Below, piece after piece: positions 4,297-10,685 of a stretch of DNA of 11,058 nucleotides. Both the position numbers and the translations under genes were made by a program. Location: NCBI GenBank assembly GCA_029069015.1, contig JAIEBL010000297.1, positions 1 through 11,058 of the forward strand, given 5' to 3'. Position 1 is the stretch's first letter; each line of letters opens with the position of its first letter. A model generated the notes under the pieces. That model was not told the DNA's origin. It saw nothing but the letters and a program-made list of their open reading frames with translations, and searched no databases. The stretch comes from Clostridiales bacterium (GTDB lineage Bacteria; Bacillota; Clostridia; Christensenellales; Pumilibacteraceae).

Positions 4297-4458
4297 TTAT
4301 TTCGTCTCCTTGTGGAGCGTGTGCTTGTGGCAGAACTTGCAGTACTTTTTCAGTTCGATACGATCGGGATCGTTCTTCTTGTTTTTGTAATCGTCATAGT
4401 TCCGTTGTTTGCATTCGGTGCAGGCAAGGGTAATACGCGTTCTCGTAGTAGCAGCCAT
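4297..4458 (-). CDS. rpmG: 50S ribosomal protein L33, zinc-binding form
   Basis: A 53-residue L33, a small large-subunit protein near the E site. It begins [16 protein letters not shown] and has two CxxC pairs (C13/C16 and C40/C43), so it is the zinc-holding type; the zinc-free paralogue lacks these cysteines. The [21 protein letters not shown] core is typical of the family. The ATG at 4458 follows GAGGAG by 10 bases. It is the first gene of the operon and sits about 60 bases downstream of a TTGACA promoter. Confidence 0.95.
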
Positions 4459-4475
4459 TGGTTTTCAACTCCTCG

Positions 4476-4491
4476 CTATGGTAAACCATAG
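4476..4491 (-). other. Perfect hairpin next to the rpmG ribosome site
   Basis: CTATGG and CCATAG pair around a 4-nt loop on the minus strand. The stem ends one base before the GAGGAG site at 4474-4469, so it sits at the very edge of the ribosome landing area in the operon leader. Confidence 0.5.
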
Positions 4492-4497
4492 AAAAAT

Positions 4498-4520
4498 AAA
4501 GCCCCGTCTATATGGGCTTT
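4498..4520 (-). terminator. Terminator-like hairpin overlapping the operon start
   Basis: AAAGCCC (4520-4514) pairs with GGGCTTT (4504-4498), followed by ATTTTTC on the minus strand. It would stop read-through from the membrane protein gene upstream. Transcripts from the promoter at 4553-4524 should begin around 4518-4516, inside the 5' arm, and so would form only a shortened stem. Confidence 0.65.
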
Positions 4521-4523
4521 ATC

Positions 4524-4553
4524 ATGATACCACATCAGTGGGCGGCGTGTCAA
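4524..4553 (-). promoter_or_regulatory. Main promoter of the rpmG-rplL operon
   Basis: A perfect TTGACA (4553-4548), an 18-nt spacer and TATCAT (4529-4524), a sigma-70/sigma-A type promoter. It points at rpmG, whose start is about 60 bases downstream of the expected start site. Confidence 0.8.
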
Positions 4554-4616
4554 CTTTTTTGCCAAGCTTTTTTCGTAGCTTAAACAAAAACTTTGTCACT
4601 GCATTTTGCCCCTCCC

Positions 4617-5141
4617 CTACTTTAAAAGCTTCAAGAGGCGTATGGAAAGCTGATTGAACAACAAATCGAAAACGAGCGCGAAAACCGTAAACAGGAGCGC
4701 GAGCACCGCATAGCCGCCGAGTCTACCTGCAATCGTAAGGACGTCTACGGCGATCCACTTGGCGGCAAACCATACGCCCACAAGCGCAAGATTGGCAAAC
4801 ACCGCGACCGCGCCAAGACGAATGAGCGCCGTCTGCCATTTGGTGTAGTAGAGTTTGCGGATAAAATAACTGAGGAGCGCGTAGGGCGCAAACACGATTG
4901 CCGTAAGTAAGAACGCCGAGGAAAGCGGCGTCAAGCCCCCCGTAAAGAAGACGAGCAGCAGACTCACCGCGACGTCCGCAACGCCGTACCCAAACCCGCA
5001 CTTACAGCACACGATATAGTAGCAAAGCGCCGCCGCCATCAGAAGCGAAATCTTTAACCAGCCGAAGTTGGTCAAAAACAGGCACACCGCCGCCACCGCC
5101 GCGCCTACCGCGGTATACGTTATTTTGCGCGTACTGCTCAA
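4617..5141 (-). CDS. Six-helix integral membrane protein, resembling ECF S components
   Basis: About 174 residues with roughly six membrane segments (near 7-23, 25-43, 50-68, 75-95, 105-125 and 140-165), short loops and a basic C-terminal end (LLKLLK). Size and helix count fit substrate-binding S components of ECF vitamin transporters, and the N-terminal RKITYTAVGAAVAAV is reminiscent of them, but I cannot name a substrate, so this is weak inference. I prefer the TTG at 5141 as the start: GGGGAGC (5157-5151) stands 9 bases before it and the protein then begins MSSTRKITY. The alternative GTG at 5174 has no good ribosome site. A CC pair (YYIVCCKCG) near residue 40 is notable. There is no tight downstream partner. 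Confidence 0.7.
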   Translation of the reverse strand: MSSTRKITYTAVGAAVAAVCLFLTNFGWLKISLLMAAALCYYIVCCKCGFGYGVADVAVSLLLVFFTGGLTPLSSAFLLTAIVFAPYALLSYFIRKLYYTKWQTALIRLGAVAVFANLALVGVWFAAKWIAVDVLTIAGRLGGYAVLALLFTVFALVFDLLFNQLSIRLLKLLK

Positions 5142-5145
5142 AATT

Positions 5146-5184
5146 TCATAGCTCCCCGAAAAATAAAAGTGCACGTTTTTTCAT
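5146..5184 (-). CDS. Possible 12-residue leader peptide
   Basis: ATG at 5184 preceded by GAAAGG, encoding MKKRALLFFGEL and ending with TGA at 5148-5146, four bases before the TTG of the membrane protein gene. The ribosome site of the membrane protein lies inside this small reading frame, so its translation could control access. It may equally be chance; there is no family to match. Confidence 0.35.
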   Translation of the reverse strand: MKKRALLFFGEL

Positions 5185-5212
5185 TCGCGCACCTTTCTTT
5201 GCATTCCTTACG

Positions 5213-5248
5213 AAAAAAAACCGCGCGCCTTTTACCCGCAACAGCGCG
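5213..5248 (-). terminator. Probable terminator after the J-domain gene
   Basis: CGCGC within the last codons (5248-5244) can pair with GCGCG at 5228-5222, and the minus strand then runs into eight thymines (5220-5213). The stem is only 5 bp and overlaps the stop codon, so strength is uncertain, but the T run is the longest in the window. Confidence 0.5.
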
Positions 5249-5843
5249 TCATCTGGCAACAGCAATCGGTCACGCAGTACGCGAGGCAGCAGTTGCTGAG
5301 CGCGTTGCCGCCGCAAAGCTGCCCGTTTTGCATATCGGGTGGCGGCATATTCGGATCTGCGCCGAGCGTGCGGGCATCGGCGTTCGGGTTTCCGATCACC
5401 ATATCCAGCTTTTCGAGCGCGGTTTTGTACTTCTCGTTCGTGGGATCCATTTCCACCGCCGTGGCAAGCTGCGCGCGGCTGTCGGAGAGCCATTCGCGTT
5501 TATAGTATACGATAGACTGCAAATAGTGCCACTGCGCATTGCGGTCGGTGATGGCGTCCAAACGGGCTTGCGCTTCATCGTACGAGCCCTTTTTGATAAG
5601 GTCGTCGATTTCGCCGTAATCGCCGTCGCCGAACTTTTCTTTGGCTTCTTTCTTCTGAAGGTCAGCCGAAATCTGCGACCAAGCCGCTTCCAACTCGCTG
5701 AGTTTTTTTGCGCCTTCGTTGCCTTCCTCGCCCGACTTGAAACGCTGCTCGCCGTACTCGGCTTTGAGCGCTTCGTATTCTTCCTTTAATTCTTCTTCGC
5801 TCGCGTCGGGGGTAAGCCCCAACACGGAATAGGGATCTTTCAT
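5232..5843 (-). CDS. J-domain-like protein with TPR-like middle and cysteine-rich tail
   Basis: A 203-residue protein. Residues 2-30 (DPYSVLGLTPDASEEELKEE onward) match helices I and II of a DnaJ J domain, but the HPD motif that activates DnaK ATPase is absent: GEQ stands at 31-33 where HPD belongs. Residues about 84-146 look like two TPR-type helical repeats (KGSYDEAQARL and DSRAQLATAVEMDPTNEKY). The tail from 177 has nine cysteines in 27 residues, including CCC and a terminal CCG, possibly metal binding. Related Clostridial J proteins with a cysteine-rich end are known to me from memory. The ATG at 5843 is chosen over TTG at 5846 because AAGGAG is 6 bases before it. It has its own promoter. 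Confidence 0.75.
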   Translation of the reverse strand: MKDPYSVLGLTPDASEEELKEEYEALKAEYGEQRFKSGEEGNEGAKKLSELEAAWSQISADLQKKEAKEKFGDGDYGEIDDLIKKGSYDEAQARLDAITDRNAQWHYLQSIVYYKREWLSDSRAQLATAVEMDPTNEKYKTALEKLDMVIGNPNADARTLGADPNMPPPDMQNGQLCGGNALSNCCLAYCVTDCCCQMTRCCG

Positions 5844-5894
5844 CAATGACTCCTTGCTGTTCTGTCCAAACGACGCCTTCCGGCTCTTTCTATC

Positions 5895-5923
5895 AGTATA
5901 ACCGATTGCCCGAAAATATCCAA
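5895..5923 (-). promoter_or_regulatory. Promoter of the J-domain-like gene
   Basis: TTGGAT (5923-5918), a 17-nt spacer and TATACT (5900-5895) on the minus strand. The expected start lies about 45 bases before the ATG at 5843. Confidence 0.7.
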
Positions 5924-5960
5924 CAGTTTTGCATACCCTTTTTTACTTTTTTTATTTTTT

Positions 5961-5986
5961 CACGCTTCGCCGCTTTCCGAAGCGTG
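5961..5986 (-). other. Hairpin after the DUF5685 gene
   Basis: CACGCTTCG and CGAAGCGTG form a perfect 9-bp stem with an 8-nt loop, four bases past the stop codon. On the minus strand it is followed by AAAAAATAAAAAAAG, not thymines, so it is not a standard terminator for this gene. On the plus strand the thymines lie before the stem, also wrong. It may act as a 3' mRNA stem. Confidence 0.5.
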
Positions 5987-5990
5987 GGCT

Positions 5991-6857
5991 TTATAACTTC
6001 GGGGGCGGCAATTTCTTTTGGCTACCGAGGAGCTCTTCGCACTTTGCCCGAAGCCCTTTATGCACGATATTTTTGAGCAGGTCGCTCGCACCCGTAAACG
6101 TAATGCCGTTAAAGCATTCGATGGCGCGGTTGACGGTACTCGCAAGCAGGAATGTAAGCGCCGCACGGTTGTCTTCGATAAACTGCTTGCGGCTTTTAAA
6201 TCCGCCGAATGCGGCGAGTAACGGATTATACCGCTTATGCTTATCGTCCTCGCCGAGGTCGTCGAGCGCGTCTGCGATATATACGAACTTTCCCACGTTA
6301 TACAGGAGCTTTTTCAGTTTTTCGTCCGTCGTGTTTGTCAGACACACGCCCAAACGCTCCATCATTGCCCCGAAGCAATCGGCAACGCGGTCGACGCCCA
6401 CGGTATTCGCCGCCTCAAGAGCGCGCAGCCTTTCGTACTCGCTCCGTATGATTTCGTCGGCCTCGGGTAGCATCGCCGCCGCTTTTTCGTAGTGTTTTTT
6501 GAGCATACGGCGTGCCATGCGTTTTTTTGCGCCGCCGCCGTCAAGTACGTCGTCGTTTGCCTTACAGTAGCTCAGAAGTATATTGACGGCTACGATTTTA
6601 TCGAAAAGCTCGTTGCGGCAAACCACCGTCTTCTTTTTGGGATTGCAGATACACCCGCAGTTACGGAACGTGACCTGCGTCTGTTCGTAGTCGTGCAAAA
6701 GCACGCTCAAAAACACCATATCGTAGTTGGTGGTAAAGCGCGGCCACTGCCCGAACATTTTGCTCGTACTCATGCAGATCCCGCAATAGAACGCGCGGTA
6801 TAGGCAAAAGTCCGCTTGATTCAATTCCGCCTTGATAGGCACTACGTATCCGTACAT
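5991..6857 (-). CDS. DUF5685 family protein
   Basis: A 288-residue protein I recognise as DUF5685, of unknown function and found mainly in Firmicutes and Actinobacteria. The start MYGYVVPIKAELN, the YCGIC motif (C25/C28), NYDMVFLSVLLHD and a cysteine cluster (C67, C69, C71, C80) fit the family. Two aspartate-rich spots stand out: NDDVLD (101-106) and DALDDLGED (196-204), the latter in a helix-like context. No signal peptide or clear membrane helix is seen; the protein looks all-alpha and cytoplasmic. The ATG at 6857 has only a weak upstream ribosome site (GAAAG about 16 bases off). It follows trpS by 44 bases. Function should be left open. Confidence 0.85.
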   Translation of the reverse strand: MYGYVVPIKAELNQADFCLYRAFYCGICMSTSKMFGQWPRFTTNYDMVFLSVLLHDYEQTQVTFRNCGCICNPKKKTVVCRNELFDKIVAVNILLSYCKANDDVLDGGGAKKRMARRMLKKHYEKAAAMLPEADEIIRSEYERLRALEAANTVGVDRVADCFGAMMERLGVCLTNTTDEKLKKLLYNVGKFVYIADALDDLGEDDKHKRYNPLLAAFGGFKSRKQFIEDNRAALTFLLASTVNRAIECFNGITFTGASDLLKNIVHKGLRAKCEELLGSQKKLPPPKL

Positions 6858-6884: not shown

Positions 6885-6910
6885 CAACCGTCGTTTTAAA
6901 ACTACGGTTG
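6885..6910 (-). other. Stem-loop at the trpS stop codon
   Basis: CAACCGT (6910-6904) and ACGGTTG (6891-6885) pair, with an inner GTTTTAAAAC palindrome extending the stem after one mismatch. Only TTATAAG follows, so it would be a poor terminator. It may partly separate trpS from the DUF5685 gene. Confidence 0.4.
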
Positions 6911-7918
6911 CACGAACCCTACTTTGCGGTACACCTTCGAAAGCGTTTTATACGCCATGCGCCGTGCACGCTCCGCGCCGTCTTTCATGACCTGCGACAG
7001 GTACGCTTTATCGGCAATGAGTCGCTTGTATTCCTTTTGCACGGGCGCTAAAAACGCGCAGACCGCTTCGCCCGTTCTCTGCTTAAACGCCGCGTAATCG
7101 CTGCCTTGGAATTCCTTTTCCGCCGCCGCAAGCGAAACGCCCGCAAACACCGAATAGATGGTAAGCAGGTTGGAGATCCCCGGCTTGTTCGCGCGGTCGA
7201 ATTTTACGCAGGTGTCGCTGTCGGTGACGGCGCGTTTGAACTTTCGCATGATCTCTTCGGGCGGATCGAGTAACAGCACGCTGCCCGCGGGGTTTTCGTC
7301 CGTCTTGCTCATTTTGGCAGTCGGGTTTTGCAAGCTGTACAGCTTCGTGCCCACTTTGGGCATAATGGGTTCGGGCACGGTAAACGTGGGCGAATACTTA
7401 TTGTTGAAGCGTTGGGCAATCGTACGCGCAAGCTCCACGTGTTGCTTTTGGTCCTGCCCTACGGGCACGAGTTCGGCTTGATACAAGAGAATATCCGCCG
7501 CCATCAGCACGGGATAATCGAACAGCCCCACGTTCACGTTTTCGGGCGCACGTTTGCTCTTTTCTTTGAACTGCGTCATGCGCCGCGCCTCGCCGAACTG
7601 CGTATGACAGTTGAGCACCCAGGCAAGCTCGGCATGCGCCGAAACGTGCGACTGCAAGAACAGCACGCTCTTTTCGGGGTTCAAACCGAGCGCAAGATAG
7701 GTCGCAAGATCGTCGAGCGTATCCTTGCGAAACTCGGCAGGCGGCACGTCCACCGTGATGCTGTGAAGATCCGCCACGCAATAAAAGCAATCGTAGGAAG
7801 GGTCGGACTGCATCGCCACCCAGTTCGCAAGCGCGCCCGCATAGTTGCCGAGCGTCATGCTGCCCGTAGGTTTTACGGCACTGAATACGACTTTTTTCTT
7901 TGCTTCTTCTGCTTCCAT
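6902..7918 (-). CDS. trpS: Tryptophanyl-tRNA synthetase
   Basis: A 338-residue class I aminoacyl-tRNA synthetase that charges tRNA-Trp. The HIGH equivalent is TLGN (22-25), as in the TIGN form of Bacillus-type enzymes; the KMSKS loop reads KMSKT (202-206). The sequences FGEARRMTQFKEKS (108-121), MAADILLY (139-146), and VGQDQKQHVELAR (153-165) are diagnostic; length is normal. The ATG at 7918 comes 14 bases after the preceding stop, with a weak AAGG site. It is the third gene of a compact operon with a P-loop protein and the shortened threonine synthase relative. There is no visible T-box leader before trpS itself; I looked at the 14-base gap and the region before 9257. Confidence 0.98.
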   Translation of the reverse strand: MEAEEAKKKVVFSAVKPTGSMTLGNYAGALANWVAMQSDPSYDCFYCVADLHSITVDVPPAEFRKDTLDDLATYLALGLNPEKSVLFLQSHVSAHAELAWVLNCHTQFGEARRMTQFKEKSKRAPENVNVGLFDYPVLMAADILLYQAELVPVGQDQKQHVELARTIAQRFNNKYSPTFTVPEPIMPKVGTKLYSLQNPTAKMSKTDENPAGSVLLLDPPEEIMRKFKRAVTDSDTCVKFDRANKPGISNLLTIYSVFAGVSLAAAEKEFQGSDYAAFKQRTGEAVCAFLAPVQKEYKRLIADKAYLSQVMKDGAERARRMAYKTLSKVYRKVGFVQP

Positions 7919-7932
7919 ACGTTTTTTATACC

Positions 7933-8850
7933 TTACTTTTCTGTTTTGCTTGCGAGCGCCCTGAGCGCTTCGGAGAGTTCTTCCGCTTTCATCGTACCCG
8001 TAAAAAGTTTTGCCTTTTCGGATAATTTTATAAGCGATTCGGGAGCATCGAGCGCTGTGACCTCTTCCAAAAGTTTGAGGTCACGCCGAAAAGAACCCGT
8101 GCTCTGCTCGCCGATCGCCGTCAAAACCTCGGACGCGAACAGATGCGGCGACGCAGTAGAGAGCACCACCGTCACGCGTTCGTCGTCTGTGCTTTCCGTG
8201 TATTCTTCCATGGCATACACCGCTGCCGCAGTATGGGGATCGAGCACGTAGCCGTACTCGTCGAACGCGTAGCCGATCGTATTGACGATCTCTTCCTCGT
8301 CTGTCCGAAAAACCACGATTTTTCCGCGGGGTATACCCATTCCCAAAAAATCGGCGTTTTCGTCTTCTTTAAGCGCGCAGATCAGCTTGCCTACGGGAAG
8401 CCCCATTTCTGAGGCGCACTGCCCCGCCGTGAGCAAGCTTCCGTCGCCGTAGCCAACACAAAAGTTCACTTCGTCGCCGTAGTCGATTTCGCCCGCGTCG
8501 AGCAAATCGACGTACGCCGAAACGTAGCACGCGATCAGCGGTGCGATTGCAAGAAGCGCCCCTTCATCGCTTTGAGCAGGCAGACAGGAACGCACCGCAA
8601 ACGGTATATCCTCATAGCCTAAGCTTGGCCCGTGCCAAAGCTCCAAAAAGAACGTGCCTTCGTCTACCTTTACGAGGGGCGCGGGATCGCCGTCGAATGA
8701 TGCGTATGCTTCTTCCGTTACAGACGACAGCGCGCCGAGCGCGGGAAACAGCAGCGAAAGAATGCTTGCCGCGCGAGCGGCAAAATCCTCGCCGCACATT
8801 TGTTCGATTTGTGCACGCGATACTTTCAGCAGCGCTTGGGTAAACTTCAT
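7933..8850 (-). CDS. Threonine synthase-like protein, internally shortened and lacking the PLP lysine
   Basis: A 305-residue intact reading frame that aligns by eye with threonine synthase in ordered blocks: SRAQIEQMCGEDFAARAASI (11-30), FFLELWHGPSLGYED (67-81), APLIACYVSAYVDLLDAGEI (103-122), the MGLPVGKLICAL block (149-160), YGYVLDPHTA (199-208) and VVLSTASPHLF (228-238). True enzymes read LELFHGPTLAFKD, where K binds pyridoxal phosphate; here that position is E80. The SGDTG phosphate loop and about 100 surrounding residues are absent between 84 and 103, and SGNFG is replaced by GYGDG (133-137). So it is very unlikely to make threonine. AAAAGGAAG precedes the ATG at 8850; gaps to the P-loop gene and trpS are 14 bases each. 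It could be a regulator, scaffold or slowly decaying remnant. Confidence 0.85.
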   Translation of the reverse strand: MKFTQALLKVSRAQIEQMCGEDFAARAASILSLLFPALGALSSVTEEAYASFDGDPAPLVKVDEGTFFLELWHGPSLGYEDIPFAVRSCLPAQSDEGALLAIAPLIACYVSAYVDLLDAGEIDYGDEVNFCVGYGDGSLLTAGQCASEMGLPVGKLICALKEDENADFLGMGIPRGKIVVFRTDEEEIVNTIGYAFDEYGYVLDPHTAAAVYAMEEYTESTDDERVTVVLSTASPHLFASEVLTAIGEQSTGSFRRDLKLLEEVTALDAPESLIKLSEKAKLFTGTMKAEELSEALRALASKTEK

Positions 8851-8864
8851 TGCTTCCTTTTAAA

Positions 8865-9257
8865 TTACAGATACCGTTTGAGCTCGTCGGGCACTTCGGC
8901 CATGCTGAGCGTTACGGTGAAATGCACTTTGTATTTCGTGGAGAGTGCGTCGAGCTTGTGGATGAAGGGCACAACGTCGATTTCGCCGATGCGCGCGATG
9001 CCGTCGATATAGAATTCTTTGATGTCGGCGTTGCCCGCGATCATGCCTTTAATGAACGCCTCTAAGGCGCAGCCCTTCTTGATATCGTGCTCGCCTGTCA
9101 CAACGAAACGGATCGCGTTTTTGATGTCGAGGCTGTATTTATCCACGGGCGTAATAAACACCACGTTGCCGTTGCTCGTTTCCGCCGCCTTGTTTGCCTT
9201 CTCGATGATTGCCTGCGTTTTACCGCTTCCCTTAGCTCCGTAGATAAGTTCGATCAT
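8865..9257 (-). CDS. Small P-loop ATP/GTP-binding protein
   Basis: A 130-residue protein beginning MIELIYGAKGSGKT, a clear Walker A motif (G7-T14). The following NVVFITPVDKYSLD and the EFYIDGIARIGE segment fit the rest of a small P-loop core, the latter possibly holding the Walker B aspartate. I recall similar short conserved ATPase-like proteins in Clostridia, sometimes labelled PilT by weak similarity, but no function is known to me. The ATG at 9257 follows AAAGGAA at a short distance. It heads the cluster with the threonine synthase-like gene and trpS, 100 bases after aspC. I find neither a strong terminator nor a convincing promoter in that gap, so read-through from aspC is possible. Confidence 0.75.
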   Translation of the reverse strand: MIELIYGAKGSGKTQAIIEKANKAAETSNGNVVFITPVDKYSLDIKNAIRFVVTGEHDIKKGCALEAFIKGMIAGNADIKEFYIDGIARIGEIDVVPFIHKLDALSTKYKVHFTVTLSMAEVPDELKRYL

Positions 9258-9357: not shown

Positions 9358-10566
9358 TTACCGCAAGCTATCCGCAAACGCTTTTATGCGGGAAAGCCCC
9401 TCTTTGATATCTTCAAGCGATATGGCGTAGCTCAGGCGAACGTAGCCGTCCGCGCCGAACGGTTCGCAGGGAATCACCGCCACTTCGCACTCACTGAGGA
9501 GTGCCGTTGCGAACGAATACGCACTCTCGATTTTTACCCCACGCGGCGTCTGCTTCCCGAAAAGTTTTTCCACGCCCACCATCATGTAGAACGCGCCTTC
9601 TGGGCGAATATACGTAAGCGGTTGCATCCCTTCGAGCGTTTCGATCATGTACTTGCGGCGCGTATCGAACGTTTGCCGCATCTGCGCCAAAAAGGCTTCG
9701 CCCTCGCTACCCGTATAGGCGCCTAACGCCGCGTACTGCGCGATTGCGTTGGGGTTGGAAGTCGTGTGGCTTTGCATGCCCGCGATTGCCTTTGCAACCG
9801 CCCGATCGCTCGCCGTGTAGCCGATGCGCCACCCCGTCATAGCGTACGTTTTGCTGACGCCGTTTACGAGGATCGTGCGCGCTTTGATTTGCGGCGAATA
9901 CTCGGCAATCGAGTAACACGGGGGCAAATCGTAAATGAGTTTTTCGTAGATTTCGTCGGATATGATAAAGATTTCTTCGTGTTTTTCCAAAACGCGCGCA
10001 AGGGCTTTGAGCTCTTTTTCCGAATAGACCGCGCCCGTCGGATTGCAAGGGTTGTTGATCAGACCCGCTTTCGTTTTCGGGGTGATCGCTTTTTCAAGCT
10101 CCGCCGCCGTCAGCTTAAAGCCTTTTTCCGCTTTTGTCCGCACGAACTCGTTAACGCCGCCGCAGAGTTTAACAAGCTCGGGATACGTAAGCCAATACGG
10201 CGCGGGAATGATCACTTCGTCGCCTTCGTCCAGTATCGCCGAAAACGCATTGAACAGCGCGTGCTTTGCGCCGTTGGAAATCACGATATCTTCGGGCGCA
10301 TACAAAAGATGATTGTCTGCTTTGAGTTTATCCGCAACAGCCGCGCGCAAAGCTTCCGTACCCGCCGCCGGCGTGTATTTGGTAAGCCCCATATCAAGCG
10401 CGTCTTTTGCCGCTTTGCAGATATAGTCGGGCGTATTGAAGTCGGGTTCGCCCGCACCGAACGATACCACGGCTTTCCCTTCCACCTTCATTCTTTTTGC
10501 CTGTGCTGTAATTGCGAGCGTAAGCGACGGCGACACCGCCTGTGCCCGAAGCGCGATTCGTGCCAT
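9358..10566 (-). CDS. aspC: Class I pyridoxal phosphate aminotransferase, aspartate aminotransferase group
   Basis: A 402-residue fold-type I aminotransferase of the aspartate/prephenate aminotransferase subgroup (AAT-Ib), which moves amino groups between aspartate and 2-oxoglutarate. SKTYAMTGWRIGY contains the PLP lysine K239; other family marks are FGAGEPDFNTP (36-46), SNGAKHALFNAF (97-108), PAPYW (121-125), NNPCNPTGAVY (171-181), the DEIYEKL segment from D204, and the C-terminal R377 (YVRLSY) that binds the substrate carboxylate. I start it at the ATG at 10566, which opens with MARIALRAQ and has GGAGG upstream (long spacing); the in-frame extension to 10656 runs through the promoter. Exact substrate is not certain. 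Confidence 0.92.
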   Translation of the reverse strand: MARIALRAQAVSPSLTLAITAQAKRMKVEGKAVVSFGAGEPDFNTPDYICKAAKDALDMGLTKYTPAAGTEALRAAVADKLKADNHLLYAPEDIVISNGAKHALFNAFSAILDEGDEVIIPAPYWLTYPELVKLCGGVNEFVRTKAEKGFKLTAAELEKAITPKTKAGLINNPCNPTGAVYSEKELKALARVLEKHEEIFIISDEIYEKLIYDLPPCYSIAEYSPQIKARTILVNGVSKTYAMTGWRIGYTASDRAVAKAIAGMQSHTTSNPNAIAQYAALGAYTGSEGEAFLAQMRQTFDTRRKYMIETLEGMQPLTYIRPEGAFYMMVGVEKLFGKQTPRGVKIESAYSFATALLSECEVAVIPCEPFGADGYVRLSYAISLEDIKEGLSRIKAFADSLR

Positions 10567-10602
10567 ACTTCTCTTGGGCTTCCTCCGTATATCTCTCTTT
10601 TT

Positions 10603-10631
10603 AGTATAACATAGTACACGCCAAAAAGCAA
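10603..10631 (-). promoter_or_regulatory. Promoter of the aminotransferase gene
   Basis: TTGCTT (10631-10626), a 17-nt spacer and TATACT (10608-10603) on the minus strand. The expected start lies about 30 bases before the ATG at 10566. Confidence 0.7.
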
Positions 10632-10685
10632 ATGTTTTCTTTTGTACCCGCTGCATTTACCGCCACCGAACAAAAAGACAAAACA

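Follow-up and report, generated by a model that had tools for sequence, protein, structure and literature searches.

A threonine synthase homologue without its small domain and catalytic lysine, encoded upstream of trpS in a Pumilibacteraceae genome

The window analyzed here is an 11,058-nucleotide stretch of contig JAIEBL010000297.1 (assembly GCA_029069015.1), and its subject is a minus-strand open reading frame (ORF) of 305 codons that is derived from threonine synthase (ThrC). The encoded protein, designated P0001, is a threonine synthase homologue by fold and descent. Its gene occupies the place of thrC in the operon, and its genome, that of a gut-type bacterium, has, as far as the assembly goes, lost threonine synthesis. 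ThrC-derived frames with broken motifs recur in other genera of the family, and purifying selection acts on those of two clades within one sister genus. We read the 305-codon gene as a retained, non-catalytic ThrC pseudoenzyme, with a probability of about 0.5. Enzyme homology combined with loss of the essential catalytic residues, a mark of a pseudoenzyme, is what P0001 displays.

Structure and position of the 305-codon gene

The ORF begins with ATG, contains no internal stops and is preceded by a good ribosome binding site (Table 1). Gaps of 14 bases separate it from both neighbors (positions 8851 to 8864 and 7919 to 7932), as the initial annotation had noted. A ThrC profile built from 39 longer relatives (480 to 516 amino acids) aligns in order to residues 7–90, 102–172 and 183–303 with a score of 265 bits (E = 2.7e-82 in a search file of five sequences), which bears out the earlier recognition of ordered ThrC blocks along all 305 residues. 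Alignment likewise upheld two substitutions recorded at that stage: the Schiff-base lysine that binds pyridoxal phosphate (PLP) is replaced by glutamate (E80, in GYED rather than FKD), and the PLP phosphate loop, S/TGNFG, is replaced by GYGDGS. The extent of the missing material was underestimated. The small domain (∼100–105 residues, including SGDTG) is indeed gone, and with a further ∼30 N-terminal residues and ∼60 residues around TSPSMDIL the total shortfall relative to full-length ThrC is ∼190 residues, not ∼100. The protein scores above the cut-off for Pfam THR4_C (31.5 versus 27) and below those for Pfam PALP (17.2 versus 35) and the NCBIfam thrC equivalog TIGR00260 (29.4 versus 167.1 bits). 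In an AlphaFold model it forms a compact ThrC large domain (pLDDT 90); on this prediction, what is left of the protein should still fold as a single compact unit.

Relatives with the same deletion, which the initial annotation had suggested seeking, do exist. Four other database proteins lack both the same domain and the lysine: P0002 (305 amino acids, 64%), P0003 (290 amino acids, 67%), P0016 (274 amino acids, 45%) and P0018 (391 amino acids, 37%). In-frame losses of varying extent distinguish the five short forms, and because P0018 retains most of the later stretch, these losses look stepwise. A length-limited search was evaluated over the best 120 of 926 matches; ten of these had no precomputed PALP domain, of which nine were inspected (all except P0215), and 11 further rows were also inspected individually. 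Beyond the five short forms, only P0143 was of the same kind among the rows inspected from these best 120 of 926 matches. This protein of 335 amino acids has neither the lysine nor the small domain. Since its best matches among proteins of the window's genus (g1, that of Pumilibacter muris) and of a second genus, g18, are g18 ThrC sequences, its small domain was likely lost separately, as a second such event.

Synteny shows where the gene came from. Full-length thrC is found at exactly the window position in six of six congeners, within the block aminotransferase, NTPase, thrC, trpS, DUF5685 (in two of the six loci, one end gene of the block is cut by a contig end). At 22 more loci beyond the genus (20 from the family and two from the order), examined with flanks of only ∼1.5 kb, trpS adjoins thrC at 19, and 15 have the NTPase gene. 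The thrC–trpS neighborhood is older than the genus, and the 305-codon gene is therefore the positional ortholog of thrC, altered in place.

Close relatives encoding the missing block had been put forward as a sign of recent deletion or assembly error. The block is encoded in all six congeners, so its deletion postdates the split from them, yet it is absent from the four other database proteins. An assembly error or chimera might be suspected in a genome as fragmented as this one (407 contigs). We rejected this explanation as extremely improbable because those four proteins have the same deletion; P0001 also occurs on two contigs in the database, and synteny is intact.

Table 1. Features of the window, with positions counted from its first letter
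Feature	Coordinates	Strand	Evidence or remark
ThrC pseudoenzyme, small domain stripped, 305 amino acids	7933..8850	-	Frame, profile, alignment and structure evidence
AAAGGAAG, Shine-Dalgarno-like, directly 5' of the ATG at 8850	8853..8860	-	
Codon of E80, site of the ThrC PLP Schiff-base lysine	8611..8613	-	Alignment
YGDGS (residues 134–138) where the SGNFG phosphate loop belongs; YGDGS likewise in P0002 and P0003	8437..8451	-	Alignment
Junction, residues 90–100; small domain with SGDTG missing here	8551..8583	-	Alignment, profile
Junction, residues 172–183; ∼60 residues around TSPSMDIL missing here	8302..8337	-	Alignment, profile
P-loop NTPase-like protein, 130 amino acids, directly upstream; same position in 6/6 congeners	8865..9257	-	
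trpS, tryptophan--tRNA ligase, directly downstream; same position in 6/6 congeners	6902..7918	-	
Aspartate-aminotransferase-like gene, bounding the conserved block upstream	9358..10656	-	Start codon uncertain
DUF5685 gene, bounding the conserved block downstream	5991..6857	-	

Pathway loss and recurrence within the family

The window's genome, designated G000 (1.63 Mb in 407 contigs; family Pumilibacteraceae according to NCBI), is 84.8% complete. Within this assembly we found no second ThrC, no homoserine dehydrogenase, which is present in six of six congeners, and no ApgM-type homoserine kinase (TIGR02535), which gives a strong match in five of the six (not in G003). The GHMP-type ThrB (TIGR00191) was useless as a pathway marker, giving only weak matches below the cut-off in all seven genomes of the genus. 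A single PLP fold-II enzyme, presumably of the cysteine-synthase type, was present in G000, versus three to four matches per congener, ThrC included. Because incompleteness could hide one gene but hardly all of them, threonine synthesis appears to have been lost in the window's lineage, as far as the assembly shows.

These absences bear on the functions that the initial annotation had offered, a sensor of threonine-pathway metabolites or a regulatory partner of full-length ThrC. Retention of a large domain that is predicted to fold would agree with either. In the 84.8% complete G000 assembly, however, neither a full-length ThrC nor either of the two upstream pathway enzymes was found, and the PLP-site residues are lost, which makes both functions very unlikely. 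What survives of the proposed repurposed pseudoenzyme is a derivative of ThrC that is non-catalytic and has an undamaged frame; the sensor or partner role assigned to it found no support.

Genomes with or without a detected homoserine dehydrogenase are termed hom+ or hom−. Among 74 genomes of the family, 46 are hom+ and 28 are hom−. A ThrC match was found in 45 of the hom+ genomes; the exception, G011, is taken as incomplete because trpS was likewise not found there. We examined the 35 complete ThrC sequences from these 45 genomes, together with that of G110, which is cut by a contig end, and left out nine. All 35 have canonical motifs except for GNLG in G050. Note that regular expressions missed motifs at 15 of 27 loci, mostly DxHTAxA. 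Eight of these loci and three others were re-read by alignment, which revealed conservative variants and the GNLG of G050, and the remaining seven had failed the DxHTAxA pattern only.

The 28 hom− genomes comprise 15 without a ThrC match and 13 with an intact ThrC-derived frame adjoining trpS. All 13 retained ORFs have broken motifs. They belong to the window, to ten genomes of g18 (ORFs of 472–484 amino acids) and to two genomes of another genus, g5 (G010 and G026; 334 and 341 amino acids). The g5 ORFs are far diverged, yet the ThrC profile matches them with E values of 2.9e-17 and 5.2e-26 (file of five sequences). The stops or frameshifts of a pseudogene are absent from the window, from all ten hom− g18 genomes and from G010 and G026. 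Fourteen of the 15 ThrC-less genomes have a readable trpS locus, and over 2.6 kb upstream, or the extent of the contig, neither tblastn nor the ThrC profile detected a remnant of ThrC. Elsewhere in the family thrC is cleanly absent between the aminotransferase gene and trpS, for example in all eight genomes of the genus g17.

Half of the g18 genomes (10/20) combine a broken-motif ThrC-like gene with no detected homoserine dehydrogenase. Strong or partial matches to the ApgM-type kinase occur in six of the ten hom+ genomes and in none of the ten hom− genomes of this genus. In a tree of four neighboring genes the ten hom− genomes form two clades, A (eight genomes) and B (two genomes), with support values of 100 each, and a node with a support value of 91 in the thrC tree also parts clade B from clade A. 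The lysine is retained in eight of eight clade A proteins and GNFG in six of eight. It is absent from G049 and P0143 and, by reading rather than alignment, from the two g5 proteins. Since clades A and B are separate, the window's lineage is nested among six intact congeners and g5 adds a further case (counted by genus only, as it was not on the tree), conversion of ThrC upon pathway loss probably had four independent origins, and at least three.

Selection on the retained frames

For hom− g18 pairs with thrC dS values below 1, pairwise omega (dN/dS) for thrC was 0.11–0.20 among five genomes of clade A and 0.33 between the two of clade B, and for trpS in the same pairs it was 0.02–0.06. Tree-based values were derived with our own GY94 codon model, for which the clade A log likelihood (lnL) agrees with that of IQ-TREE (−4625.8). 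For the five clade A genomes this gave omega values of 0.142 for thrC (2ΔlnL versus omega = 1 of 498.0) and 0.043 for trpS. A one-ratio model was rejected for thrC in g18 (2ΔlnL 59.7, 4 degrees of freedom). On the tree of 19 genomes, thrC omega was 0.129 for the hom+ background, 0.573 for stem A, 0.176 for crown A, 0.266 for stem B and 0.311 for crown B; in the same order, trpS gave 0.083, 0.155, 0.043, 0.120 and 0.034, so the stems are raised in trpS too, though less than in thrC. Values of 2ΔlnL versus omega = 1 for thrC were 773.4 (crown A), 72.6 (crown B) and 7.0 (stem B), and 1.7 for stem A, which does not differ from 1. The clade A small domain had an omega of 1.49 on the stem and 0.156 in the crown. 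Clade A thus went through a burst of change on its stem, followed by renewed constraint. Stem omegas of a 40-codon block, which reached the bound (7.389), and single-tip tests in clade B, which were weak (2ΔlnL 4.7 and 5.9 for thrC, 0.3 and 0.1 for trpS), were not used. These data are strong evidence that, in clades A and B, the ThrC-like ORFs that outlived the pathway encode selected proteins.

Such a course could also be that of an enzyme. ThrC might have been redirected to another PLP reaction after pathway loss, with the window's form as a late, dead branch. The lysine and GNFG retained in clade A, the stem burst with the constraint that followed, and the threonine deaminase activity published for Microcystis ThrC (PMC12172450) favor this explanation. 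The window's form cannot itself be a changed enzyme because it has no lysine, phosphate loop or small domain, and the lysine is also absent from the G049, P0143 and g5 proteins. We regard this explanation as improbable.

For the window's own lineage, P0001, P0002 and P0003 were compared over 276 shared sites with neutral simulations that allowed no stops, run 400 times at each of three kappa values. Changes among the three are clustered, with a variance-to-mean ratio of 1.44 versus 0.71–0.72 under neutrality (z = 4.4–4.7), and somewhat more conservative than simulated (z = 2.3–2.8). Neutrality would predict 5.8–10.4 stops across the three lineages, but databases list intact proteins only. Together with the replacement and conservation data given below, we read these patterns as suggesting real but relaxed constraint on the window's lineage.

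A serious rival to the retained pseudoenzyme is that the protein is inert and that its frame stays open because the ribosomes translating it deliver or protect both translation and transcription of trpS, an essential gene just downstream. In-frame deletions would then shorten the gene until it is cleanly removed. The stop codon of thrC overlaps the start codon of trpS as ATGA in four of the six congeners (G001, G004, G005 and G006; loci L032, L035, L036 and L037), so the two genes are probably translationally coupled there; the window has its 14-base gap and no such overlap. The unequal extent of the in-frame losses in the short forms, a replacement pattern in the trio P0001–P0003 that is closer to neutral than in the enzymes, and the clean removal of thrC elsewhere, as in g17, also fit this explanation. 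Selection on the frame alone, however, yields neither the omega values of 0.14–0.31 in clades A and B nor the clustered changes in the trio, and in clade A the ORF is kept although it does not overlap trpS. We consider this alternative possible, if somewhat doubtful.

Several observations weigh against a retained pseudoenzyme. Any second job of ThrC would have to be dispensable, because 14 pathway-less loci show no remnant of the gene. The window's thrC branch is saturated in the codon model, and the four short relatives were compared as proteins. Within the trio, replacements have a mean BLOSUM score of −0.26 to −0.40, less conservative than those of hom+ enzymes or hom− relatives (0.05 each), and the trio's conservation correlates weakly with that of ThrC (rho = 0.13, p = 0.027; the strictest cut gives p = 0.20). 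Neither E80, whose conservation the initial annotation had proposed to check, nor the new loop is identical across the five short forms; the residue at the lysine site is E, R, E, E and E in P0001, P0002, P0003, P0016 and P0018, respectively. The clade A proteins may be changed enzymes, and so possibly no guide to the window's form. Finally, branches between clades A and B mostly have support values of 43 to 88, and the independence of the two is therefore only moderately supported.

Possible role and known counterparts

Comparison shows the gene to be thrC itself, altered in place within a lineage that has, on the evidence of the assembly, lost threonine synthesis. In-frame deletions removed the N-terminus, the small domain that closes over PLP and part of the sequence close to the substrate site, and the catalytic lysine was lost as well. 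If the gene is a retained pseudoenzyme, the leftover large domain would be translated without catalytic activity and maintained for a task free of catalysis, most likely contact with another protein; the gene's position upstream of trpS probably adds selection for an open frame. The NTPase encoded just upstream would be the first candidate partner, because it is missing at the locus in pathway-less genera without a ThrC-derived gene. More tentatively, ThrC of this family may have a second, catalysis-independent job that resides in the large domain and is linked to the operon NTPase. Pathway loss may then often have been followed by retirement of the enzyme into this job, with the catalytic residues going first and the whole small domain next, as independent events in three or four lineages.

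The NTPase has no Pfam family above the cut-off. It was found, whether ThrC was intact or dead, at 26 of 26 g1 and g18 loci that reach its position (among them the window, L032–L037, L168 and L189–L206), and in none of the 14 thrC-less genomes with a readable trpS locus was it detected there. As a lead this is weak: both genes could go in one deletion, and the search covered the locus only. Against a general partnership, the NTPase was also not found at the locus in the two g5 genomes that retain a ThrC-derived ORF.

Compared with ThrC from S. pneumoniae (8g1y), E. coli (1vb3) and yeast (1kl7), P0001 is homologous over all kept blocks and has the large-domain fold, without the Schiff-base lysine, the GNFG loop, the small domain with SGDTG and the TSPSMDIL stretch. 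With the thrC of its congeners it has the operon position in common. Vertebrate THNSL1 and THNSL2 are ThrC homologues in organisms that do not make threonine; both are full-length and have the lysine, and THNSL2 has been reported to be a phospho-lyase. P0001, which has neither small domain nor lysine, is unlike these two. CysK is an active PLP enzyme. As it has the same fold and acts as a binding partner in CysK:CdiA (5j43, 8zyc), it offers an analogy for a possible partner role of P0001. Rv3778c of M. tuberculosis is likewise a bacterial PLP-fold protein without the lysine and is judged likely non-catalytic in passages of PMC12910592. It differs in belonging to another family (cysteine desulfurase-related) and, to go by those passages, apparently in lacking recurrent in-place conversion after pathway loss. 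Non-canonical roles of yeast threonine-pathway enzymes are described in PMC11442984. The passages concerned in PMC8454773 and PMC6522883 hold nothing about dead ThrC. Among the matches listed from the open-access literature on ThrC pseudoenzymes, thrC pseudogenes, and THNSL2-like or moonlighting ThrC, we found no bacterial dead ThrC of this kind.

Repeated retention of a dead biosynthetic enzyme after pathway loss is a natural experiment: either the textbook enzyme would have a further function, or dead genes would be preserved by their place in an operon. Pumilibacter muris, a named relative with full-length ThrC, makes both readings testable. Note that a ThrC annotation does not imply threonine prototrophy, as the ten g18 genomes with a broken ThrC-like gene illustrate.

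The two g5 ORFs, from two species, lie directly upstream of trpS (L167, 3873–4898, minus strand, 341 amino acids; L221, reverse complement, 4456–5460, 334 amino acids) and encode proteins that are 27% identical over 311 residues. In G010, the product of trpS (L221, reverse complement, 5527–6609) has, by eye, an apparent insertion of ∼20 residues that immediately precedes the NVNVGLF motif.
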